Assembly: GCA_000531095.1 (NCBI GenBank)
Contig: HG799471.1
Span: 141,295-205,294 of the forward strand
DNA length: 64,000 bases
Reading direction: 5' to 3'
Source: Gemmata massiliana
Lineage (GTDB): Bacteria > Planctomycetota > Planctomycetia > Gemmatales > Gemmataceae
Positions 39,179-53,532 of the stretch are shown here, in pieces; position 1 is the first letter of the stretch; each line of letters begins with the position of its first letter. Below the pieces are notes generated by a model that did no database searches, was not told where the DNA came from, and saw only the letters and a program-made list of their open reading frames with translations. A program made the translations under genes and the position numbers.

Positions 39179-39187
39179 GGACCGACC

Positions 39188-42100
39188 GTGTTCTCACGTT
39201 TCTTTATCGACCGACCGATCTTCGCATCGGTCCTGTCGATCGTCATCACGCTCGCGGGGGTGCTGGCGCTCCTCAACCTGCCGGTCGCGCAGTACCCGGA
39301 AATCAGCCCTCCGTCGATTTCGGTTTCGATCAGCTATCCCGGGGCGAGCGCCCAAGTCGTCGCCGACACTGTGGCCGCCCCGATTGAGCAGCAGGTGAAC
39401 GGCGTCGAGGGCATGCTCTACATGTCCTCGCAGTCCGGCAACGACGGCTCGTACTCGCTGAGCGTCACGTTCGAGATCGGAACGGACCTGAACACCGCAC
39501 TGGTGATGGTCCAGAACCGGGTGATGCTCGCGATGCCGCAACTCCCCTCTGAGGTCCAGCTCCAGGGCATCACGATCCGCAAGAAGACGCCGGACATCTT
39601 GCAGGTCATCAGCTTTTACTCGCCCGACGACCGGTACGACATCATCTACATGAGCAACTTCGCCACGGTGAACGTGCGCGACGAGTTACTGCGCATTGAT
39701 GGGGTATCGGACATTAACGTGTTCGGGCAGCGCGACTATAGCATGCGCGCGTGGTTGAACCCGCAAAAGTTGGCCGCCCGTGGACTGACCGCGACCGATG
39801 TGGCGGCGTCGGTTCGGGCACAAAACAAAGAGGCCGCTCCCGGACAGATCGGACTTCCGCCCAGCGTGGGCGGGCGAGCGTTCCAGCTCACGCTCGACAC
39901 GCGCGGCCGATTGGTCGCGGAGGACGAGTTCGGCGACATCATCATCAAAGCCGGACGAGCCAGCCGGCCACAGGCCCTGATCGCGAGCACGAGTACCGGG
40001 AGCGGCGCGCGATCAGCCGGTACGCTCGGCGGCAGCTTCACTGGAGGTGCGGCGACCAACACCGGAACGCTGGGCGATGCCCCGAACCTGAGCGCCATAT
40101 TCCCCACAACGACGAGTGCAACAAGTTCCACCGGCTCCTCGTCGATGCCGGCGACGTTCAGTTTCCCGAGTTACGTCACGAATGCGTCCCCGGGCAGTTC
40201 CGCCACCGGCTCAGCGACTCTCGCCATCGGTCCCGCCACGACCGGCCCGGCACTCAGCATGTCGTCTTCGGCCGGAGCTTCGGGGGCAACCAGTTCGACC
40301 GATCCGACCGGAACGACCTCGGACGTGACGGACAACGGGAGCGGAATGTCCGCGAATTCACCGTTGGGCACGGCTGTGTCCGGGATGAGTTCTTCTGCCA
40401 GCGCGACGCGAACCGCGCCCGTGACCGGCGGAACCGCCGGGACCAGCGCGCTCAACGGCGGATCTCTGGACGGTGGAACGACGCCCTCTGCCGCCATCGT
40501 GCGTTTGCGCGACGTGGCGCGGCTCGAACTCGGGTCGCAGTCCTACACGAACGGCGCGACGTTCGATGGCAAGCCGTCAGTCGGGTTGGCGATCCACCTG
40601 CTCCCCGGCGCGAACGCATTGGACGTGGCCGAGCGTGTCCGCATGAAAATGGACGAATTGAAGGGACGGTTCCCGGACGGGATCGAGTACCAGATCGCCT
40701 ACGATACGACGCCGTTCATCCGCGAGTCGATCCAGGACGTGGTGCAAACGCTGTTCGAGGCGATCGCGCTCGTCGCCCTCGTCGTGCTGCTGTTCTTGCA
40801 GAACTGGCGCGCCGCGGTGATCCCGCTCGTTGCAGTACCGGTCGCGATCATGGGCACTTTTGCCGTGATGCTCGCGCTCGGGTTCACGGTCAACAACATC
40901 TCCCTGTTCGGTTTGGTGCTGGCGATCGGGATCGTGGTCGATGACGCGATCGTGGTGGTCGAGAACGTCGAGCGCTGGCTCGAACAAGGTCTTGAGCCGC
41001 GTGAAGCCGCGTACAAGGCGATGGAAGAGGTGACGGGGCCGGTCGTCGCGATCGCGCTAGTGTTGTGCGCCGTGTTCGTGCCGTGTGCATTCGTGGGCGG
41101 TATTACGGGCCAGTTCTACCGCCAGTTTGCAGTCACGATCACCGCCTCCACGGTGTTCTCTGCACTCAATTCGCTCACCCTCAGCCCGGCACTTGCAGCG
41201 ATCCTTATGCGGAAGCGAGAAGGGAGCCGCGACTACCTGACGCGGGGGTTGGATTTCACTCTCGGCTGGTTCTTCCGACTGTTCAACAACGGCTTCGAGT
41301 TCGGCACGCGGATGTACACAGCAACGGTGGGTTGGTTACTCCGGCTCAGTCTGATCGTGCTCGTTTTTTATGGCGGGTTGCTCGTCGCGACGTACTGGGT
41401 TTTCCAGAAGGCGCCCACCGGCTTCGTCCCCGACCAGGACCAGGGCCGGCTCATCGTCAGCATCCAGTTGCCCGACTCGGCCTCGCTGGAACGCACGCAA
41501 GAGATCATGGCGCGCGTGGACCAGCTCGCGCTGAACACGCCCGGCGTGCAGCACACCGCGTCTGCGGCGGGCATGTCGCTGCTCATGTCGGCGAACAGCT
41601 CGAACTTCGGCACCGTGTTCCTCATCCTCGATCCGTTTGAGAAGCGCCAGCGCCCGGACCTCACGGCCGACGCAATCATGGCGAAGCTGCGCAAGGACTT
41701 CGCCCGCGAGATCCGTGATGCGGACGTCAAAATCTTCGGCGCGGCCCCGGTGCCCGGGTTGAGTGTGGCGAGCGGCTTCAAAGTGATGGTGCAGGATCGC
41801 GGTGGGATCGGGCTTGCTGAACTCCAGAAGCAAACGGACGCGGTCGTCGGCAAGCTCCAACCGAACCCCGCGACCGTGGGGGTGCTCACGCAGTTCCGCT
41901 CGAAGACGCCGCAACTGTACCTCGACGTCGACCGGACCAAAGCGCAAGCGCTCGGCGTGCCGCTCAACGACGTGAACCAGGCGATGCAGATCTACCTCGG
42001 GTCGCTCTACGCGAGCAGCTTCAACGAGTTCGGCCGCCACTGGCAGGTGACACTCCAGGCCGAGGGGCGCTACCGCACGCGGATCGAAGACGTGAACCTG

Positions 42101-43051
42101 CTTCAGGTGCGTAACAAGTGGGGCGAAATGGTGCCACTGGGCACGCTCGTGCAGCTCCGCGAGATCAACGGGCCGGTGTCGGTGACGCGGTACAACCTCT
42201 ACACCTCGGCCGCGGTGAGCGGGAACGTGCCCCCCGCGGTCAGTTCCGGGGAAGCGATCAACGCGGTCAACGCGACCGCCGAACAGACGCTCCCGCGCTC
42301 GATGAGCATCGAGTGGACCGAGCTGATGTACCTCCAGTTGCGGGCCGGGAACACTGCGATCTACGTGTTCGCGCTCGCGGTCGTGTTCGTGTTCCTGGCG
42401 CTGGCGGCGCTGTACGAGAGCTGGGCGCTTCCGCTCGCCGTCATTCTGGTCGTCCCGCTGTGCTTGTTGTGCTCGATCGGTGGCGTACTCATCGCGCACA
42501 AGGCCGTGGACGTGTTCGTGCAAATTGGATTGGTAGTGTTGGTGGGGTTGGCGTGTAAGAACGCCATTCTCATCGTCGAGTTCGCCGAGGTGCTGCACCG
42601 CGAAGGGAAACCGCGGCGCGAGGCCGCGCTCGAAGCGTCGCGGTTGCGCATCCGGCCCATCCTGATGACCTCGCTCGCGTTCATCCTGGGCGTGCTGCCA
42701 CTCGTGGTCGCATCGGGCGCTGGTGCAGAAATGCGCCGGAGCCTGGGCATCGCGGTGTTCAGTGGCATGCTCGGCGTTACGCTCTTTGGGGTATTCCTCA
42801 CGCCCGTGTTTTTCGACCTCATTCAGCGCGGCGTGGATTCCAAGGTCTTTTCCGAAACTCTGAGCCGCGGGGCGGGCGCGGGGCTGCTCGGCGCGCTACT
42901 GGGGTACACGGTGGCTCACGTGCTCGTGGGGCTACAGCTTGGCAAATCCCCGTGGGCGGAAATTGTCGGCGGAGTTTCCGGCGCGGTGTTGGCGAACGTG
43001 ATTCCTCCCGCGTGGCGGTGGATCAAGGGGCACGTGAAGTGGGAGCGGTAA
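39188..43051 (+). CDS. RND multidrug efflux permease with large Ser/Thr/Gly insertion
   Basis: This is a 1287-residue inner-membrane pump of the AcrB/HAE1 family. The N-terminus (FSRFFIDRPIFASVLSIVIT) and TM4 motif GIVVDDAIVVVENVER, with the proton-relay Asp pair, are intact. A low-complexity Ser/Thr/Gly/Ala-rich insertion of about 175 residues lies between residues 258 and 435 (nt about 39960-40492), just before VRLRDVARLELGS. This is in the region equivalent to the docking subdomain of AcrB. After the last standard helix there is a C-terminal extension with an extra hydrophobic pair (LLGALLGYTVAHVLVGL). GTG start with GAGGA 7 bases upstream. No outer-membrane channel gene is present in the operon. 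Confidence 0.93.
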   Translation: MFSRFFIDRPIFASVLSIVITLAGVLALLNLPVAQYPEISPPSISVSISYPGASAQVVADTVAAPIEQQVNGVEGMLYMSSQSGNDGSYSLSVTFEIGTDLNTALVMVQNRVMLAMPQLPSEVQLQGITIRKKTPDILQVISFYSPDDRYDIIYMSNFATVNVRDELLRIDGVSDINVFGQRDYSMRAWLNPQKLAARGLTATDVAASVRAQNKEAAPGQIGLPPSVGGRAFQLTLDTRGRLVAEDEFGDIIIKAGRASRPQALIASTSTGSGARSAGTLGGSFTGGAATNTGTLGDAPNLSAIFPTTTSATSSTGSSSMPATFSFPSYVTNASPGSSATGSATLAIGPATTGPALSMSSSAGASGATSSTDPTGTTSDVTDNGSGMSANSPLGTAVSGMSSSASATRTAPVTGGTAGTSALNGGSLDGGTTPSAAIVRLRDVARLELGSQSYTNGATFDGKPSVGLAIHLLPGANALDVAERVRMKMDELKGRFPDGIEYQIAYDTTPFIRESIQDVVQTLFEAIALVALVVLLFLQNWRAAVIPLVAVPVAIMGTFAVMLALGFTVNNISLFGLVLAIGIVVDDAIVVVENVERWLEQGLEPREAAYKAMEEVTGPVVAIALVLCAVFVPCAFVGGITGQFYRQFAVTITASTVFSALNSLTLSPALAAILMRKREGSRDYLTRGLDFTLGWFFRLFNNGFEFGTRMYTATVGWLLRLSLIVLVFYGGLLVATYWVFQKAPTGFVPDQDQGRLIVSIQLPDSASLERTQEIMARVDQLALNTPGVQHTASAAGMSLLMSANSSNFGTVFLILDPFEKRQRPDLTADAIMAKLRKDFAREIRDADVKIFGAAPVPGLSVASGFKVMVQDRGGIGLAELQKQTDAVVGKLQPNPATVGVLTQFRSKTPQLYLDVDRTKAQALGVPLNDVNQAMQIYLGSLYASSFNEFGRHWQVTLQAEGRYRTRIEDVNLLQVRNKWGEMVPLGTLVQLREINGPVSVTRYNLYTSAAVSGNVPPAVSSGEAINAVNATAEQTLPRSMSIEWTELMYLQLRAGNTAIYVFALAVVFVFLALAALYESWALPLAVILVVPLCLLCSIGGVLIAHKAVDVFVQIGLVVLVGLACKNAILIVEFAEVLHREGKPRREAALEASRLRIRPILMTSLAFILGVLPLVVASGAGAEMRRSLGIAVFSGMLGVTLFGVFLTPVFFDLIQRGVDSKVFSETLSRGAGAGLLGALLGYTVAHVLVGLQLGKSPWAEIVGGVSGAVLANVIPPAWRWIKGHVKWER

Positions 43052-43085
43052 TCCTCGGCTCAGTTAACGACGGAGGACTTCGGGC

Positions 43086-46000
43086 GTGATTTCCCACTTC
43101 TTCATCGACCGGCCCATCTTCGCGGCGGTGCTGTCGATCGTCATCACGCTCGCGGGGGCCGTGGCCGTATTCAATTTGCCCGTCGCGCAGTACCCCGAAG
43201 TCACGCCGCCAACTGTAGTCGTCACCGCGTCGTATCCCGGCGCGAACGCGCTGACCATGCGCGACACCGTGGCCGCGCCCGTTGAGGAGCAGGTGAGCGG
43301 GGTCGAGGGCATGATGTACATGTCCTCGCAATGCACCAACGACGGAACGTACACGCTCACCGTCACGTTCAAGTTGGGCACCAACGCGGACATGGCCCAG
43401 GTGCTCGTGCAGAACCGCGTGAGCCTCGCGCAGCCGGTCATCCCCACGCTCGTCCAGCGCGAGGGGATCACGGTCAAGAAGCAGTCGCCGAGCACGCTCA
43501 TGATCGTGAACCTCGTTTCCACCAACGACCGGTACCGCGATCTCGAACTGAGCAACTACGCCACGATCGAGATCCGCGACGAACTCGGCCGGCTCCCCGG
43601 GGTGGCCGGTATGGGGTACCTGGGCCAGCGCGACTACAGTATGCGGGCGTGGTTGGACCCGGAGAAACTCGCCGCGCTCAACCTGACCGCGGCCGACGTC
43701 GTGAGCGCGATCGGCGCGCAAAACATCCAGGTCGCAGCGGGGCAAATCGGCCAGCAGCCCGTTCCGAAGGGCCAACAGTTCCAGCTCACGATCAACACCC
43801 GCGGGCGGCTCATTGAGCCGGACGAGTTCGCGGACATCATCATCAAAGTGGGCCAGGGCGGACCGGCCGGTGCCCAGACGTCGCAGATGACGACGAGCGG
43901 AGCGACCGCGAGCGGAGCCAGTAGTTCCGGGACTTCGGGGAGTTCATCTCAATCCACTTCGACCGACCAGGCAGGGACCGCGGCCAGCCCCACGGGGCAG
44001 TCGGCGGCGGTCGTCCGGCTGCGCGATGTCGTAACCCCGCGGCGCGAAATCACCGACGAGACCGGACGCAAGCAAACCGTCGGCGGGGTCGAACTCGGTG
44101 CCCAGCAGTACGACCAGTCCGCGACGCTCGACGGTCAGCCGACGGTGGCCCTCACCATCTACGGCCTGCCCGGAGCAAACGCGCTCGATACGGCCAGCGG
44201 CGTGTACAAGAAGATGGAAGACTTGAAGAAGCGGTTCCCGGAGGGAATGGATTACCGCATCGTTTATGACACGACGCCGTTCGTCCGCCAGTCGGTCAAC
44301 GAGGTGTTCAAAACGCTCCGCGACGCGATCATCCTCGTGGCGATCGTGGTGCTCGTGTTCCTCCAATCGTGGCGCGCGGCGCTCATCCCGCTCGTAGCGG
44401 TTCCGGTCGCGGTGATCGGCACGTTCGCGGTCATGGCTGCGTTCAAGTTCTCGCTCAACAACCTCACGCTGTTCGGTTTGGTGTTGGCAATCGGGATCGT
44501 GGTCGATGACGCGATCGTGGTGGTCGAGAACGTCGAGCGCTGGCTCGAACACGGCTTGGAACCGCGCGAGGCCGCGCGCAAGGCAATGGACGAGGTGACC
44601 GGCCCGGTCATCGCGATCGCGCTGGTGCTCACGGCCGTGTTCGTCCCCGCCGCGTTCATTACCGGCGTGACGGGGCAGTTCTTCCGCCAGTTCGCGGTGA
44701 CGATCGCGGTCAGCACGCTGATTTCAGCGTTCAACTCACTCACGCTCAGCCCGGCTCTCGCGGCCCTTTTGCTAAAACCCAAAGACGCGCCGAAGGACAT
44801 GCCGACGCGGGCACTCGACTTCGTGCTCGGGTGGTTCTTCAAGCTGTTTAACAAGGGGTTCGGATTGACCACCGAGTGGTACGCGGGCGGGGTGAAGTGG
44901 CTCGTGCGCCTGAGTCTGATTGTGCTCGCGGTCTATGGTGGTCTGCTCTTCCTGACGTACCGCGAGTTCACTCACACTCCGACTGGCTTCGTGCCCCAAC
45001 AAGACAAGGGCTACTTACTTCTCAACGTGCAACTCCCAGATTCGGCCTCGGTCGAGCGCACCCGGCGAGTAATGGCGCGCATCGAGGCGATCGCCAAGAA
45101 CATGCCGGGCGTGGACCACACGGTCGGCATTTCCGGTCAGTCGCTCATTCTGAACGCGAACGCTCCGAACCTCGGATCGCTGTACGTCATGCTCAAGCCG
45201 TTCGCTGATCGAGCCGGAGACAACCAGACGGCGGACGAGATCGCGGCATCAATCGAAGCACAGTGCCGCAAAGAGGTTCGCGGTGCGAACGTGTCGGCGT
45301 TTGGTGCCCCACCGATCGAGGGGTTGGGAACGACCGGTGGGTTCAAGATCATCATCGAGGACCGCGGGAACTTGGGCCTCGCCGACCTCCAAAGGGCGAG
45401 CGACCAGATCGTCGCCGACGGGAACGCGACTCCGGGCCTCCAGGGGTTGTTCAACAGTTCGCGGTTCGACACCCCCTGGGTCTACCTCGACATCGACCGC
45501 ACCAAGTGCGCCGCACTCGGTCTGTCGATCGACGACGTGTTCAACACGCTCCAGTACAACCTGGGGTCGTACTACGTGAACAACTTCAACGAGTTCGGCC
45601 GGAACTGGCAAGTGAACGTGCAGGCCGATCCGATGTTCCGTGACCGGGTGCGTGGGATCGGGCAACTCCAGTTGCGCAACGCGCAGGGGAACATGGTGCA
45701 GTTGCGCACGGTAATGACCGTGCGCGACACGAGCGGACCGGTAATGGTGCAGCGGTACAACATGTACGCCGCCGCCGCGATTACCGGGAACGTCAGCCCG
45801 GGCACGAGCACCGGGCAGGCAGTCCCACTCATGGAGGGCGTCACCGCGCGTGCGCTCCCGCAATCGATGGCGACGGACTGGACCGAACTGACCTTCCTCC
45901 AAAACCAGGCGGGCAACACCGCGGTGTACGCCTTCGTGCTGGCCGTGGTGTTCGTGTTCCTGGTGCTCGCGGCTCAATACGAGAGCTGGAAGCTCCCGCT

Positions 46001-46544
46001 CGCCGTTATCCTCGTGGTGCCGATGTGTTTGCTGTTCGCGGTCGTCGGAGTGAACGTGGGGCACCAGGACATCTCGATCTTCACGCAGATTGGGCTGATC
46101 GTGCTGGTGGGACTGGCGTGTAAGAACGCGATCCTCATCGTCGAGTTCGCCAAACAGCGCCAGGAAGACGGCATGTCGCGTCAGGAAGCGGCCGTCGAAG
46201 CGAGCCGCCAGCGGCTGCGGCCCATTCTGATGACGAGCTTCGCGTTCATCCTGGGCGTGGTGCCGCTCGTGATCGCCGAAGGTGCCGGGGCCGAGATGCG
46301 GCGCTCGCTGGGGATCGCGGTGTTTAGCGGCATGCTCGGCGTGACGCTTTTCGGGATCTTCCTGACTCCCGTGTTCTTCTCGACTATTCAGTCGATCGGC
46401 TGGAACTCAAAACCCGCGCCCGAGCACAAAGAAGCACCGCACGATTCGCACGTGGAGGGCGAGAAGACCCCTCCCCCGGCGCTCCCCGCGGCCGAAAAAC
46501 CACAACCACAACAATCGCCTACGAATACAGCGAAGTCGGAGTGA
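43086..46544 (+). CDS. Second RND multidrug efflux permease
   Basis: This 1152-residue paralogue of the preceding permease begins 34 bp after it (GTG start, GGAGG 9 bases upstream). It retains the TM4 GIVVDDAIVVVENVER motif and the periplasmic porter domains. At the same site as in the first pump it has a shorter Ser/Thr/Gly-rich insertion of about 52 residues (257-308, nt about 43853-44010). The C-terminus is a Pro-rich, Glu/Lys-containing tail (about 40 residues). Two permeases behind one adaptor recall the MdtABC arrangement, where the two permeases form a heterotrimer, so a mixed pump is plausible (inference). Confidence 0.94.
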   Translation: MISHFFIDRPIFAAVLSIVITLAGAVAVFNLPVAQYPEVTPPTVVVTASYPGANALTMRDTVAAPVEEQVSGVEGMMYMSSQCTNDGTYTLTVTFKLGTNADMAQVLVQNRVSLAQPVIPTLVQREGITVKKQSPSTLMIVNLVSTNDRYRDLELSNYATIEIRDELGRLPGVAGMGYLGQRDYSMRAWLDPEKLAALNLTAADVVSAIGAQNIQVAAGQIGQQPVPKGQQFQLTINTRGRLIEPDEFADIIIKVGQGGPAGAQTSQMTTSGATASGASSSGTSGSSSQSTSTDQAGTAASPTGQSAAVVRLRDVVTPRREITDETGRKQTVGGVELGAQQYDQSATLDGQPTVALTIYGLPGANALDTASGVYKKMEDLKKRFPEGMDYRIVYDTTPFVRQSVNEVFKTLRDAIILVAIVVLVFLQSWRAALIPLVAVPVAVIGTFAVMAAFKFSLNNLTLFGLVLAIGIVVDDAIVVVENVERWLEHGLEPREAARKAMDEVTGPVIAIALVLTAVFVPAAFITGVTGQFFRQFAVTIAVSTLISAFNSLTLSPALAALLLKPKDAPKDMPTRALDFVLGWFFKLFNKGFGLTTEWYAGGVKWLVRLSLIVLAVYGGLLFLTYREFTHTPTGFVPQQDKGYLLLNVQLPDSASVERTRRVMARIEAIAKNMPGVDHTVGISGQSLILNANAPNLGSLYVMLKPFADRAGDNQTADEIAASIEAQCRKEVRGANVSAFGAPPIEGLGTTGGFKIIIEDRGNLGLADLQRASDQIVADGNATPGLQGLFNSSRFDTPWVYLDIDRTKCAALGLSIDDVFNTLQYNLGSYYVNNFNEFGRNWQVNVQADPMFRDRVRGIGQLQLRNAQGNMVQLRTVMTVRDTSGPVMVQRYNMYAAAAITGNVSPGTSTGQAVPLMEGVTARALPQSMATDWTELTFLQNQAGNTAVYAFVLAVVFVFLVLAAQYESWKLPLAVILVVPMCLLFAVVGVNVGHQDISIFTQIGLIVLVGLACKNAILIVEFAKQRQEDGMSRQEAAVEASRQRLRPILMTSFAFILGVVPLVIAEGAGAEMRRSLGIAVFSGMLGVTLFGIFLTPVFFSTIQSIGWNSKPAPEHKEAPHDSHVEGEKTPPPALPAAEKPQPQQSPTNTAKSE

Positions 46545-48774: not shown

Positions 48775-48947
48775 CGGGAGTGCCTCGTGAACTGATGGTT
48801 CATTTGAACTATTCCAAACAATCCCGCGCGCGGAAGGTTGACTTGAACACTTTTTGGGGAAACGCTCATCCATCTGCCGCGCAGTGCCGCGCATCGCGCG
48901 CGGCCCGCATTGGCGGTACAACTTGACGCGGGCGCGTGGAGCAGCGC

Positions 48948-50444
48948 ATGGAATTCGCGGGGGCGGTGGCACTACTGGTTGTGGGCGCGGCCATTGTGCT
49001 GGTGGTGAAGGGGTGGGACGTGCGCCTCGTGCTGCTCGCGGCGGCACTCGTAGTCGCCACGGTCGCTGAGGTCACGATCGCGACGAAACCCAGCAGCACG
49101 GGCGGACCTGTTGCGCGCGTGCTGCAAACGTTCCTGGCGACGTTCTCGAACGAGAAGTTCGTCGTTCCCATTTGCACCGCGATGGGGTTCGCCCATGTGC
49201 TCAAACACACTGGCTGCGAACGGCACCTCGTTTTGTTGCTGGTACACCCGTTGCGGTACGTGCGCGGGTTGATGGTACCGGGTGTGATCGTGGTCGGGTT
49301 CCTGGTGAACATTCCGCTTGTGAGCCAGACCAGCACCGCCGTGTGCCTCGGCGCGGTCGTGGTGCCTCTCATGCGCGCCGCGGGGTACTCGATGGGGACC
49401 ATCGGCGCGTGCCTGCTGCTCGGTGCATCGGTCGGTGGGGAGTTGCTGAACCCCGGTGCGCCGGAACTGCTCACCGTTGCGAACCTGACCAACGTCCCGA
49501 CGATCGTGCAAACGCAGCGGTACCTCCCGGCGCTGGTGTTCACGCAGCTCGCGGTTGCGACCGCCGTCATTTGGCTGATGAGCGTGTGGTGGGAGCGGAA
49601 GGGAGGGGGAACAGAAAGGCAACCTAACTCCCTAACCCCCTTCCCTAAGAAGGAAGGGGGAACTGAACCAAACGCACAGACAATCGCACCCCAAGCGTCT
49701 GTCTTAAGCCCCTCTCCGTTTAGGGGAGGGGTTGGGGAGGGGTTACAGCCTACCTCCGAGCGCATCAACGTGCTGAAAGCGCTCGTGCCGCTGGTTCCGC
49801 TCGCGCTGCTGTTCGCGTCTGCGATGCCGGAGCCCTACAACCTGTTCGAGATCCCGGATGCATGGGTGGTGCCGAAGAGAGCGGATGGCTCGCGCGACCC
49901 CGCGTACAACAGTCGGCTCATCGGGTTCGCGATGCTGATCGGGGTGCTGGTTGCAGCGGCAGTCACGCCCAACAAGGCGCGTGACTGCGTGAAGGAATTT
50001 TTCTCTGGGGCCGGGTACGGGTTCGCCAACATCGTCAGCCTCATTGTCATCGCCAACTGCTTCGGGGAAGCCATTAAAGCCGCGGGGCTGGCGGAGGCAC
50101 TCGGTACGCTCATCAAGAGCGCACCCGGATTGATGCAACCACTGGCCGCGCTCGTGCCGCTCGTGTTCGCGGCGATTTGCGGTTCCGGGATGGCGAGCAC
50201 GCAGAGCCTCTACGGGTTCTTCCACGGACCCGCTGAGGCACTCGGACTCGATCCGGTCGCGGTCGGTGCGATGGTGTCGCTCGGGAGCGCGGCGGGGCGC
50301 ACGATGTCGCCGGTCGCGGCCGTCGTGCTAATGTGCGCGACCCTCACGGGAACGAACCCGTTCACGCTGGTGAAGCGGGTGGCCGTGCCGCTCCTCGTCG
50401 GAATCGCTGTAGTAGTTCTGCTCCGGCTCGCGGGAGTCCTGTGA
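48948..50444 (+). CDS. DcuC-like C4-dicarboxylate carrier with in-frame repeat insertion
   Basis: This 498-residue polytopic membrane protein has about 12 hydrophobic segments and the motif LLGASVGGELLNPGAPELLTV (18-20 residue stretch near residue 160), typical of the DcuC family of anaerobic C4-dicarboxylate carriers. The N- and C-terminal halves are joined by a cytoplasmic loop at about residues 222-268. This loop is encoded by a repeat-like palindromic sequence (49621-49745) and reads as low-complexity (NSLTPFPKKEGG, SPSPFRGGVGEGL). ATG 48948 has GGAG 7 bases upstream and is preferred over the in-frame GTG at 48936. Substrate is inferred only from the family. It is followed after 43 bp by the fusion oxidoreductase. 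Confidence 0.75.
   Translation: MEFAGAVALLVVGAAIVLVVKGWDVRLVLLAAALVVATVAEVTIATKPSSTGGPVARVLQTFLATFSNEKFVVPICTAMGFAHVLKHTGCERHLVLLLVHPLRYVRGLMVPGVIVVGFLVNIPLVSQTSTAVCLGAVVVPLMRAAGYSMGTIGACLLLGASVGGELLNPGAPELLTVANLTNVPTIVQTQRYLPALVFTQLAVATAVIWLMSVWWERKGGGTERQPNSLTPFPKKEGGTEPNAQTIAPQASVLSPSPFRGGVGEGLQPTSERINVLKALVPLVPLALLFASAMPEPYNLFEIPDAWVVPKRADGSRDPAYNSRLIGFAMLIGVLVAAAVTPNKARDCVKEFFSGAGYGFANIVSLIVIANCFGEAIKAAGLAEALGTLIKSAPGLMQPLAALVPLVFAAICGSGMASTQSLYGFFHGPAEALGLDPVAVGAMVSLGSAAGRTMSPVAAVVLMCATLTGTNPFTLVKRVAVPLLVGIAVVVLLRLAGVL
49621..49745. repeat. Palindromic repeat inserted in the DcuC-like gene
   Basis: Two stems: CCCCCTTCC (49636-49644) with GGAAGGGGG (49652-49660), and CCCCTCTCC (49709-49717) with GGGGAGGGG (49723-49731). 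The flanks AACCTAACTCCCTAAC and GGTTGGGGAGGGGTTA are also mutually complementary in part. The sequence is of a kind I recall as a dispersed intergenic repeat in several phyla. Here it is read in frame through a gene. Confidence 0.7.
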
Positions 50445-50487: not shown

Positions 50488-53400
50488 ATGGACTTCGCGA
50501 CCGCACGCCGGGATTCTCTGGTCCGCTACCTGCGCCGACACATCAGCGGCGAGGTGCGGTTCGATGACACGTCACGCGGATTGTACTCCACCGACGCGAG
50601 CCACTATCAGGTCCGGCCGCTCGGGGTCGTGTTGCCGAAAACCATCGACGACCTCACGAGCACGGTGCAGATCGCGTCCGATCTGAACGTACCGATCACC
50701 GCACGCGGCGGCGGAACGAGCCTGTCCGGGCAGAGCATCGGTCCGGGCATCGTGATCGATTGCTCAAAGTACCTCAACGCGGTCGGCGAAGTAGATGTCG
50801 CCAACCGCCGCGTGCGCGTGCAGCCAGGGGTGGTGCTCGACCACCTGAACCGCGCACTCGCCCCACACGGTCTGATGTTCGGTCCGGACGTGGCGACCGC
50901 GAGCCGGGCCACGCTCGGCGGCATGATCGGGAACAACTCCGCCGGCGCGCGGTCGATCGTGTACCGGCAAACGGTCGATCACGTCCGCGCGCTCACCGCC
51001 GTGCTGTCCGACGGCGCGCGGACCGAGTTCGGGCCGCTCACGGCACTGGAGTATGAGCGCAAGCTCGAATTGCGGACGCGCGAGGGTGAAGCGTACCGGA
51101 CCGTCGATTCCACCGTGCGCCAGGCCGCGAGCGACATTCTCGCGCGCACGCCGAAGATCGTCCGCAAGGTGAGCGGGTACAATCTCGCGGCGCTGGTCGA
51201 GCGTACTCCGGTCGGGCTGGTGGAGCGAACCCCGGCCGCAAGGCCGGGGGCACCCACTGGAGCCGAGGGGTACCCCGGCCCCGGTGGACCGGGTTCGCCT
51301 CACTCACTCGTTCCGCTCCTCGTGGGGAGCGAAGGAACGCTCGCCGTCACCGCGGAAGTCGAACTCGCCGTCGTTCCGCGTTTGAAGCACCGCGGACTGC
51401 TCGTTCCGCAATTCGCGTCGCTCGGGGCGGCCCTGGACGCACTGCAAGCGTGCCTCGAACTCGAACCGTCCGCTGTCGAGTTGATGGACCGGATGCTGAT
51501 CGACCTCGCGCGCAACCAGCGATCACTCAAAAACACGATGGCCGCGGTGCGCGGGCGCCCCGAAGCGCTTCTGATGGTCGAGTTCAGTTCCGACGACCCC
51601 GCCGAGGTGTCGTACCGTGTTCACGAACTCGATCGGCGCCTCGCCGGGTGCATGGGGCTGACCGCCAGTGTCCCCGCGCTCGACGCGGCCACACGCGACC
51701 CGCTCTGGGCGCTGCGAAGTTCCGCGGTGCCGCTCCTGTACGGGATGCCGGGGGACGCGAAGCCGGTCACGTTCTGCGAGGACGCCGCGGTCGACCCCGA
51801 GCGCCTGCCCGAGTTCGCCGCCCGCTTCCGCGAAATCTTTCACAAACACGGTACCGACGGCGCCTTCTACGGGCACGCGAGCGTGGGCTGTTTGCACATC
51901 CGGCCCGTGCTGAATATCCACGAGGAAGCCGGCGTCGCGACCATGCGGAAGATCATGGAGGACGTGACCGACCTCGTGCTGGAGTTCAACGGCAGTTTGA
52001 GCGGCGAGCACGGCGACGGGCTGGTGCGCAGCGAGTGGAACCGCAAGATGTTCGGGCCGGTCGTGTACGAGGCGTTCCGACAAGTGAAGCGCGGGTTCGA
52101 TCCGGGCAACGTGCTAAACCCGGGCAAGATCGTGGACGCCCCCGCGATGGAAGACAACATGCGTGTGCCCCCGGGCCGCATGCCCGCGTCCGATCCGCCA
52201 ACCGTGCTCGATTTCTCAAAGCAGGGCGGGTTCTTCCGCAGTATCGAGCTGTGCAACGGCGCCGGCGTGTGCCGCAAAACGCAGGGCGGCGCGATGTGCC
52301 CCTCGTACCGCGCCACGAAGGACGAACAGGATACCACTCGCGCCCGCGCGAACGCGCTGCGCCTGACGCTTACAAACGAGACGCCCCAAAAGAGCCGGCA
52401 CGCGCCGATCGCTCAGCGGTGGATCTCGGACGTGATGGACCTGTGCCTCTCGTGTAAGGCGTGTAAGTCCGAGTGCCCGAGTAATGTCGACGTCGCGAAG
52501 CTGAAGTCCGAGTTCCTGCACGCTTTTTATGCGCGCCGCGCCCGTCCGCTCGGGCACCTGTTCGTGAAGCACATCCACCGCTTGAGTCCGCTGGCGGCGC
52601 GGTTCGCCGGGGTGAACAACTGGTTCGCGCGGCGGTCGTGGGCGCGGCGCGCGATGGAGAACCTCGCCGGCATCGACCGCCGACGCAGCCTTCCGGAATG
52701 GCACCGCGATCACTTCCGCAAATGGTTCTATCAAACGCGGAATTCGGAGCGCGGAACGCGGAACGGCAAACAAGAGGGCGAAAGTTCGTCGGTTTCCGTT
52801 CCGAACTCCGAACTCCGCGCTCCGCGTTCGGTCGTGCTGCTCGACGACTGTTTCACTACGTTCCAAGAGCCGAACATCGGCCGCGCCGCGGTGGCACTGC
52901 TGGAACGTGCCGGGTTCACGGTGGAACTCGCCGGGATCTGCTGCGGCCGGGCGATGCTCTCGAAGGGTTTCCTTACCGACGCACGGAAGCTTGCCCGAGA
53001 CGGCATCGCGAAACTCGATCACTTCGCGGCGCAGGGGATTCCGATCCTGGGATTAGAGCCGAGTTGCGTTCTCTCGCTGTCTGATGAGTGGCCGGAACTG
53101 GTGCCCGGCCCGGCGGCGAAGCGCGTCGCGGCGGCCGCGGAGATGGCCGACGGGTGGCTTGTGCGCCAGGTGAGCGACCACGGATTGGCCCTGGATATCG
53201 CCCCGCTTACGGGCAAGGCACTCTTACACCCGCACTGCCACCAGAAGGCGCTGGTCGGGTCGAAGGGTACCCAAAACGCTCTCCGCCTCGTGCGCGGACT
53301 GGACGTGACCGTTCTCGACGCGGGTTGTTGCGGAATGGCCGGGGCGTTCGGTTACGAGAAGCAGCACTACGACGTGAGCGTGAAGATCGCGAACCTCGAC

Positions 53401-53532
53401 CTCGTCCCCGCGGTCAGCGCGGACCCAGCCGCGACCGTGATCGCGACTGGAACCTCGTGCCGCCACCAGATCCGCGACCTCACCGGCCGCGTCGCGCGTC
53501 ACCCGCTCGAAGTGCTCGCGGGCGAGGCATAA
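50488..53532 (+). CDS. FAD-binding and Fe-S oxidoreductase (GlcD/GlcF-type fusion)
   Basis: This 1014-residue fusion joins an FAD-linked dehydrogenase and an iron-sulfur electron-transfer half. The N-terminal FAD_binding_4 domain has RGGGTSLSGQSIG (about 72-84) and NNSAGARSIVYRQT. The FAD_oxidase_C domain extends to about residue 545 (with HGDGLVRSEWN). The Fe-S half has CxxxxxC then CPSY near 585-607, CLSCKACKSECPSN (about 652-665), and CCG domains (GICCGRAM, DAGCCGMAGAFG). The architecture matches D-lactate or D-2-hydroxyglutarate dehydrogenases of the YdiJ type, feeding electrons to quinone or cytochrome. Two low-complexity insertions (about residues 238-271 and 749-781) coincide with palindromic DNA repeats. 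ATG at 50488. A DcuC-like carrier upstream suggests dicarboxylate or hydroxyacid use (inference). Confidence 0.88.
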   Translation: MDFATARRDSLVRYLRRHISGEVRFDDTSRGLYSTDASHYQVRPLGVVLPKTIDDLTSTVQIASDLNVPITARGGGTSLSGQSIGPGIVIDCSKYLNAVGEVDVANRRVRVQPGVVLDHLNRALAPHGLMFGPDVATASRATLGGMIGNNSAGARSIVYRQTVDHVRALTAVLSDGARTEFGPLTALEYERKLELRTREGEAYRTVDSTVRQAASDILARTPKIVRKVSGYNLAALVERTPVGLVERTPAARPGAPTGAEGYPGPGGPGSPHSLVPLLVGSEGTLAVTAEVELAVVPRLKHRGLLVPQFASLGAALDALQACLELEPSAVELMDRMLIDLARNQRSLKNTMAAVRGRPEALLMVEFSSDDPAEVSYRVHELDRRLAGCMGLTASVPALDAATRDPLWALRSSAVPLLYGMPGDAKPVTFCEDAAVDPERLPEFAARFREIFHKHGTDGAFYGHASVGCLHIRPVLNIHEEAGVATMRKIMEDVTDLVLEFNGSLSGEHGDGLVRSEWNRKMFGPVVYEAFRQVKRGFDPGNVLNPGKIVDAPAMEDNMRVPPGRMPASDPPTVLDFSKQGGFFRSIELCNGAGVCRKTQGGAMCPSYRATKDEQDTTRARANALRLTLTNETPQKSRHAPIAQRWISDVMDLCLSCKACKSECPSNVDVAKLKSEFLHAFYARRARPLGHLFVKHIHRLSPLAARFAGVNNWFARRSWARRAMENLAGIDRRRSLPEWHRDHFRKWFYQTRNSERGTRNGKQEGESSSVSVPNSELRAPRSVVLLDDCFTTFQEPNIGRAAVALLERAGFTVELAGICCGRAMLSKGFLTDARKLARDGIAKLDHFAAQGIPILGLEPSCVLSLSDEWPELVPGPAAKRVAAAAEMADGWLVRQVSDHGLALDIAPLTGKALLHPHCHQKALVGSKGTQNALRLVRGLDVTVLDAGCCGMAGAFGYEKQHYDVSVKIANLDLVPAVSADPAATVIATGTSCRHQIRDLTGRVARHPLEVLAGEA
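51230..51290. repeat. GC-rich hairpin repeat inside the fusion oxidoreductase gene
   Basis: CCCCGGCC (51230-51237), GCAA loop and GGCCGGGG (51242-51249) form a perfect 8-bp stem with a GNRA tetraloop. A second palindrome GGGGTACCCC and a further CCGG-rich segment follow to about 51290. The encoded protein segment (VERTPAARPGAP, GYPGPGGPGS) interrupts the conserved spacing between VSGYNLAALV and VGSEGTL. Confidence 0.65.
52734..52828. repeat. Palindromic repeat with iterated CGGA units in the oxidoreductase gene
   Basis: Arms of 33 bp (52734-52766 and 52796-52828) are complementary at 25 positions and are built from repeated CGGAAC or CGGAGT units. It is translated in frame as NSERGTRNGKQ to PNSELRAPRS. 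The unit design is like the intergenic element at 23080-23163. Confidence 0.65.

Follow-up and report, generated by a model that had tools for sequence, protein, structure and literature searches.

Gemmata massiliana carries inside a transporter gene a palindromic repeat that is very probably one copy of a short, dispersed and non-autonomous repeat of the genus Gemmata, surviving in frame within genes. The window analysed here is a stretch of 64,000 nucleotides (contig HG799471.1, positions 141,295 to 205,294 of the forward strand), and the finding, a genus-level set of in-frame palindromes, is broader than what a sequence-only reading of the same DNA had seen. In the following G000 stands for the window's own draft genome (9.27 Mb, 22 contigs), and G008 and G012 for two close relatives.

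The element in the transporter gene

The copy in the window and its host gene comprise the following features (window positions, with the strand where one applies):

48936..50444, + strand: 502-aa ORF of a DcuC-family C4-dicarboxylate transporter with a GTG start, uninterrupted by the element
49620..49742, + strand: 123-nt palindromic element with two arms, read in frame as 41 residues (about 229-269)
49636..49660: left-arm hairpin CCCCCTTCC...GGAAGGGGG, full palindrome CCCCCTTCCCTAAGAAGGAAGGGGG
49661..49708: centre separating the two arms, variable (copies of one genome about 57% identical)
49709..49731: right-arm hairpin CCCCTCTCC...GGGGAGGGG, full palindrome CCCCTCTCCGTTTAGGGGAGGGG
49734..49742: second purine block GGGGAGGGG, forming with 49709-49731 a pyrimidine-purine-purine block of the intrastrand-triplex type
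49602..49619: 18 nt similar to the tail of a left arm, missing in the 97% identical G008 orthologue

The sequence-only reading had placed the repeat at 49621-49745; the repeat itself is real and its borders are refined here to 49620-49742. What had been said about the gene is borne out, as the frame 48936-50444 runs over 502 aa with no stop inside the element and its product is indeed DcuC-like, matching Pfam DcuC (PF03606) and NCBIfam DcuC_1. Both models match the ORF in two stretches, and the better DcuC_1 stretch begins at residue 274, directly past the insert. The openness of the element is unremarkable as a signal, 24.5% of shuffles having as many open frames. Patterns derived from CCCCCTTCCCTAAGAAGGAAGGGGG and CCCCTCTCCGTTTAGGGGAGGGG (at most 3 mismatches) are expected by chance 0.00 and 0.12 times in the window, and all their matches in the window fall within the element. 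The 149-nt strand folds better than 200 of 200 dinucleotide shuffles (DNA parameters, z -3.1), and in the predicted fold of the element the outer flanks of the two hairpins pair together. The DcuC slot is 18 nt longer in the window than in G008, and the 18 nt at 49602-49619 may be what is left of an element inserted before. An AlphaFold model of the transporter, calculated with 27 orthologues as input, has a mean pLDDT of 84.3. The pLDDT drops below 50 at residues 225-227 and 229-271, and the insert is predicted to be a disordered loop separating two helical halves. We infer that the insert is translated; the predicted peptides spanning its borders include LTPFPKKEGG and LSPSPFRGGVGEG.

Copies and their reading frames

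An initial BLAST search in G000 gave at least 52 matches (40 of 123 candidates scored). Using the right-half pattern (at most 3 mismatches) we found 72 sites in G000, 64 in G008 and 50 in G012, compared with 3, 2 and 4 for the reversed controls, and the left-half pattern gave 33, 61 and 54 sites with a control of 0. Left-half matches are present in 12 of 18 genomes tested. The census holds 184 classified copies (70 from G000, 64 from G008 and 50 from G012) and includes 70 of the 72 right-half sites of G000, the remaining two having been fetched later and not added. Among the 134 copies in which both arms were recognised 54 are 123 nt and 29 are 99 nt long, and 123-nt copies within one genome have arms that are on average 87–92% identical and centres that are about 57% identical. 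Some single genes harbour tandem elements (L255, L206, L210 and L246), and two 99-nt units in G012 stand in place of one 123-nt unit in G008. In arrays the element often has a palindrome of a third type (ACCTACCCCCCCGNCCCCCTCCCTGAAGGGAAGGGGG-like) directly beside it (e.g. L186, L187 and L188).

For the analysis of the reading frame, 240 nt on each side of a copy were scored with a codon model trained on long ORFs of the window, which recovered the frame used in training for 148 of 159 chunks; the thresholds were our own and the control was run afterwards. The 114 copies of G008 and G012 divide into 54 stop-free ones whose two flanks share a coding frame, 4 with a frame change, 45 with coding support on one side only and 11 with support on neither side. 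That genic copies mostly keep the frame was thus confirmed for these two genomes, with 54 of 58 both-flank copies in frame as against 32% of simulated insertions of real elements; in the same control, restricted to spots with both flanks coding on the same strand, untouched spots at these loci were in frame in 89%. After merging of orthologous sites 41 are in frame and 3 are not (p 1e-16 against one third), and the frames of the 61 merged internal sites are +0 in 29, -2 in 27, +1 in 4 and -0 in 1. The G000 draft has 29 copies with both flanks coding, of which only 13 are in frame, 15 show a frame change and 1 contains a stop.

Walking outward along the ORFs classified 44 of the 64 copies in G008 as internal with coding support on both sides, 19 as one-sided and 1 as having none or no open frame. 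The corresponding numbers are 35 of 50, 9 and 6 for G012, and for G000 they are 17 of 70, 24 and 29 with support on neither side. A further 25 left-half sites, which come from 20 selected regions among the matches listed, comprise 10 internal and 10 one-sided sites and 5 without coding support. The one-sided copies may be terminal extensions or gene neighbours. The repeat had been taken for one of a usually intergenic type, which is wrong for this genus, as 51 of the 78 classified G008 copies are ORF-internal and have coding support in either flank.

The length of the slots is preserved in the same way. From 84 ortholog pairs found, 75 between genomes were measured for slot length, and between G008 and G012 the differences are multiples of 3 in 20 of 21 cases, with a range from -93 to +204 nt (18 of 19 if only non-zero differences are counted, p 3e-8). 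Comparisons with G000 gave multiples of 3 in 17 of 35 cases against G008 and in 7 of 19 against G012. A targeting of genes by the insertions is not needed, since the in-frame share of the copies (54 of 114 in G008 and G012) is near that of random spots, which lie in frame with both flanks coding in 54%. The same share is higher than the approximately 35% derived by hand for random insertion followed by purging, and this mild excess of in-frame copies in genes may reflect a further factor at work.

The frame breaks seen in G000 suggest sequencing error and not biology. All 17 homopolymer indels inside elements (8 against G008 and 9 against G012) leave G000 shorter, whereas 9 pairs between G008 and G012 show no homopolymer indel at all, which disfavours a biological origin of the G000 frameshifts; these nine pairs contain 6 other gaps that are not multiples of 3 and one that is. 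Flank indel counts were noisy and were left out of the homopolymer comparison. Because the indels all go in one direction, homopolymers appear to be undercalled in this draft, and if so, G000 understates the preservation of the frame. Runs of N in the G000 assembly (e.g. at L307), along with the one-way homopolymer indels, also point to its draft quality. More generally, sequencing error may lie behind frameshifts that older drafts show in such GC-homopolymer inserts.

Insertion and exchange of elements

Comparison of filled and empty sites at loci other than DcuC identifies the elements as insertions and not as native loops. The site of G008_L161 is filled in G008 and empty in G000 with flanks that are 96% identical, and the site of G012_L160 is filled in G012 and empty in both G008 and G000. 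G012_L174 is filled and the matching sites in G000, G008 and G010 are empty, although these may be paralogues because the flanks belong to a repeated gene family. The element at G008_L155 is reduced in G000 and missing in G012. Inspection by eye of three sites for the target duplication expected of a MITE moved by a transposase revealed a possible imperfect repeat of 5–6 nt at one of them and none that is clear at the other two, with no consistent pattern.

The loop of the transporter was compared in an alignment of 17 same-genus sequences, including that of the window, and 10 sequences from other genera. Occurrence of the same loop in distant genera had been named in the sequence-only reading as an argument against an inserted element; none of the 10 orthologues outside the genus has a palindromic insert and their loops are 14–28 residues long. 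Within the genus 7 of 17 sequences carry a two-arm palindromic insert there (G000, G008, G012, G010, G003, G001 and G005), and those of G010, G003, G001 and G005 are built on other arms than the window element, with the insert of G001 folding nearly end to end. G015 and G007 show by eye a short hairpin-like insert. Left-half matches are found in the genomes of G015, G004, G002 and G016, which nevertheless have no two-arm insert in DcuC, and G009, G011, G013, G014 and G017 have neither left-half matches genome-wide nor a DcuC insert. On a tree calculated without the insert columns the presence of the insert requires at least 5 changes, 4 of them forced by well supported branches. A single gain followed by several losses may account for this distribution, but repeated filling of the slot is favoured because the elements differ between species.

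The gene next to the transporter contains two further inserts:

52734..52829, + strand: inverted-arm insert of another repeat family, likewise in frame, in the gene that follows (50488-53532); 36-nt arms 75% complementary
51220..51303, + strand: further linker, variable and in frame, whose inverted arms are imperfect, same gene (50488-53532); 36-nt arms 72% complementary

The insert at 52734-52829 has short matches elsewhere in G000 and G008 and lies in the linker of a FAD-oxidase / 4Fe-4S / CCG protein, in which other species carry different inserts, and the linker at 51220-51303 is almost missing in G001 and G010. Elsewhere in the window two adjacent long stretches (39187-46544) are 68–80% alike as DNA and are apparently duplicated genes, which we take to be efflux-pump genes.

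Slots also change their content. Nine of the 34 same-length ortholog pairs available at the outset had unalignable flanks and were removed, and of the remaining 25 pairs 20 contain the same element and 5, representing four distinct slots, a different one. The right hairpin is flipped in place in two ortholog pairs between species, and in the slot of G012_L252, as recognised by flank matches, G008 (L204) and G000 (L021) carry an element in the opposite orientation. Unrelated palindromes are found as well: at the slot of G008_L203 the G012 genome (L316) has an in-frame palindrome with perfect 29-nt arms, which is also present in frame in the G003 orthologue of the gene next to the transporter (L356, linker 52734-52829), and the slot of G008_L214 is occupied in G010 by another one.

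Constraint, host proteins and possible explanations

In 15 in-frame ortholog pairs dN/dS is 0.44 for the element (dS 0.17, dN 0.077), both values being raised because the pairs include some slots with exchanged elements, and 0.12 for the coding flanks (dS 0.37, dN 0.044). The 20 same-element pairs diverge by 3.7% and 5.1% in the arms, 8.6% in the centre and 8.8% and 9.2% in the flanks. In these alignments the nucleotides of the arms are kept more than their surroundings and the inserted peptide diverges faster than the rest of its host protein, a combination that fits a constraint on DNA or RNA, or exchange between copies, rather than a selected peptide. We scanned 30 host proteins with internal G008 copies against Pfam and obtained a match in 28 of them, with matches flanking the insert on both sides or spanning it in 20 (in two of these 20 one match lies under the Pfam cut-off). 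By Pfam the hosts include homologues of RecD2, HrpB, UvrA, SMC (insert within the hinge), RNase R (within RNB), the CCA-adding enzyme, ParA, an antiporter-like complex I subunit, AcrB and a type III polyketide synthase.

We propose that the element, with a full form of 123 nt and a 99-nt form, usually offers one stop-free frame per strand, so that about one third of the insertions into genes would stay translatable. Insertion would be close to random, with gene-breaking copies being purged, and the survivors would add about 33–41 disordered residues rich in Pro, Gly and Lys to loops and linkers of ordinary as well as essential proteins. The arms would be held near constant as DNA, either because their hairpins or triplexes have a function or because copies exchange sequence, and the encoded peptide would be left to drift. 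Loops that tolerate an insert would then serve as slots that are filled, exchanged and emptied repeatedly, by the family of the window element or by unrelated palindrome families. It is conceivable, and we put it forward tentatively, that several unrelated palindrome families circulate throughout the genus by way of shared loop slots. These slots would be vacated and refilled in frame, with either orientation allowed, and the arms would be homogenised at the DNA level over dispersed genic copies. Genes would act as refuges for the repeats in such a traffic because imprecise deletion would break the host gene.

The constancy of the arms could also mean that the DNA or RNA structure has a job of its own in recombination, replication pausing, nucleoid or mRNA folding, and that genes are merely the places where palindromes persist. 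We regard this as unlikely, even if it agrees with the lower divergence of the arms (3.7%/5.1% versus 8.6% in the centre and about 9% in the flanks of the 20 same-element pairs), with a dS below that of the coding flanks (0.17 and 0.37), with the identity of the arms between copies of one genome (87–92% compared to about 57% for the centres) and with the two right-arm hairpins flipped in place between species. Exchange between copies would explain constant arms equally well, five genomes of the same genus do without left-half matches, and elements come and go at single sites, in slots that also take unrelated palindromes. A selected peptide would be expected even less: several Gemmata species retain the DcuC slot with an insert in it, but the relaxed constraint (dN/dS 0.44 versus 0.12), the functionally unrelated hosts and the presence of different peptides or none in one slot make it very improbable that the inserted peptide has acquired a functional role in its host. 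That the transporter gene is a decaying pseudogene whose frame is open by chance can hardly be maintained, as nothing beyond the insertion itself speaks for it, whereas the frame of 502 aa is open, its halves are conserved (97% identical in G008 and 86% in G012) and the flanking codons show a dN/dS of 0.12 in the pooled in-frame pairs.

Two hairpins in inverted orientation with a variable centre between them are also what a REP dimer (REPIN-like) moved by RAYT, a Y1 transposase, would look like, and Y1_Tnp matches occur in 17 of 21 genomes searched. Intragenic REP dimers are already known (PMC3733652). RAYT as the mover is nevertheless unsupported: G008 with its 64 right-half copies has zero Y1_Tnp matches, 10 Y1_Tnp loci scanned for the arms gave one match only, which is weak, and by eye the window copy has no GTAG tag at the stem base, its stems being preceded by CTAA and TAAG. 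An origin as a REP dimer is therefore doubtful. The reading as a dispersed repeat with in-frame survivors remains the one that we prefer.

Relation to known repeats

The sequence-only reading had likened the repeat to the Rickettsia palindromic elements (RPEs), the original papers on which are reportedly those of Ogata from 2000 and 2002. This likeness stands for the manner of working, with 54 of 58 copies in frame and unrelated hosts, and we set the two side by side by behaviour and not by sequence. The Gemmata element is RPE-like in its size of 123 or 99 nt, its two arms and its many copies (72, 64 and 50 in three genomes), in lying in frame in unrelated genes (54 of 58 in G008 and G012, simulated 32%, draft G000 13 of 29), and in being absent from orthologues (0 of 10 for the DcuC loop outside the genus, empty sites at the DNA level at other loci). 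RPEs are described in PMC10969869 as tolerated in-frame palindromic repeats of about 100–150 bp in unrelated genes, belonging to several families. In contrast to them, the Gemmata element resides in a free-living, GC-rich planctomycete genus and its slots are refilled by other families.

With the intragenic REP dimers the element shares hairpin pairs in opposite orientation inside ORFs. It differs from them in its length of 99–123 nt, in the ORF-internal position of most G008 copies, in the missing GTAG tag (window copy) and in having no link to RAYT. According to PMC3733652, most REPs are intergenic with units of 20–40 bp, Opitutus terrae (also from the PVC group) is richest in intragenic GTAG repeats, and two Xanthomonas species have different REPs at nearly the same position in recB.

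The right arm, which consists of a pyrimidine block, a loop, a purine block, a loop and a second purine block, resembles the intrastrand-triplex TM repeats of E. coli. For the latter, PMC4666352 gives a rule for class II pyrimidine-purine-purine blocks (at least 6 triads), and states that they are always intergenic in MG1655 and sometimes occur in inverted pairs of two types. The right arm in the window agrees with this rule (9 triads, one mismatch), as it does in 147 of 184 copies, which were however chosen by that very arm; for the left arm the number is just 7 of 134 copies. Unlike TM repeats the Gemmata copies are mostly ORF-internal (51 of 78 classified in G008), and the second purine blocks point outward, whereas they seem to point inward in the E. 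coli pairs listed in that source, judged from the printed coordinates. Long inverted repeats within translated genes are also known from mitochondria of Nematomorpha, where coding palindromes lie in conserved protein sequence; the relevant sections of PMC6649704 do not describe them as copies of one dispersed element, which distinguishes them from the Gemmata repeats. Listings of open-licence literature contained no report of such elements in Gemmata that we could find, and the word 'Gemmata' is absent from PMC3733652 and PMC4666352.

Conclusion

In-frame palindromes have been known chiefly from Rickettsia and from scattered REP cases. In the free-living lineage studied here, lying within a gene and in frame is the usual condition of the repeat. 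As empty, filled and swapped alleles exist in close relatives, insertion, tolerance and replacement can be traced site by site, and the sites are natural maps of where homologues of SMC, RNase R, UvrA and RecD2 accept 33–41 extra residues. The most interesting points are the exchange of slots between unrelated families and the conservation of the arms as DNA within coding sequence.
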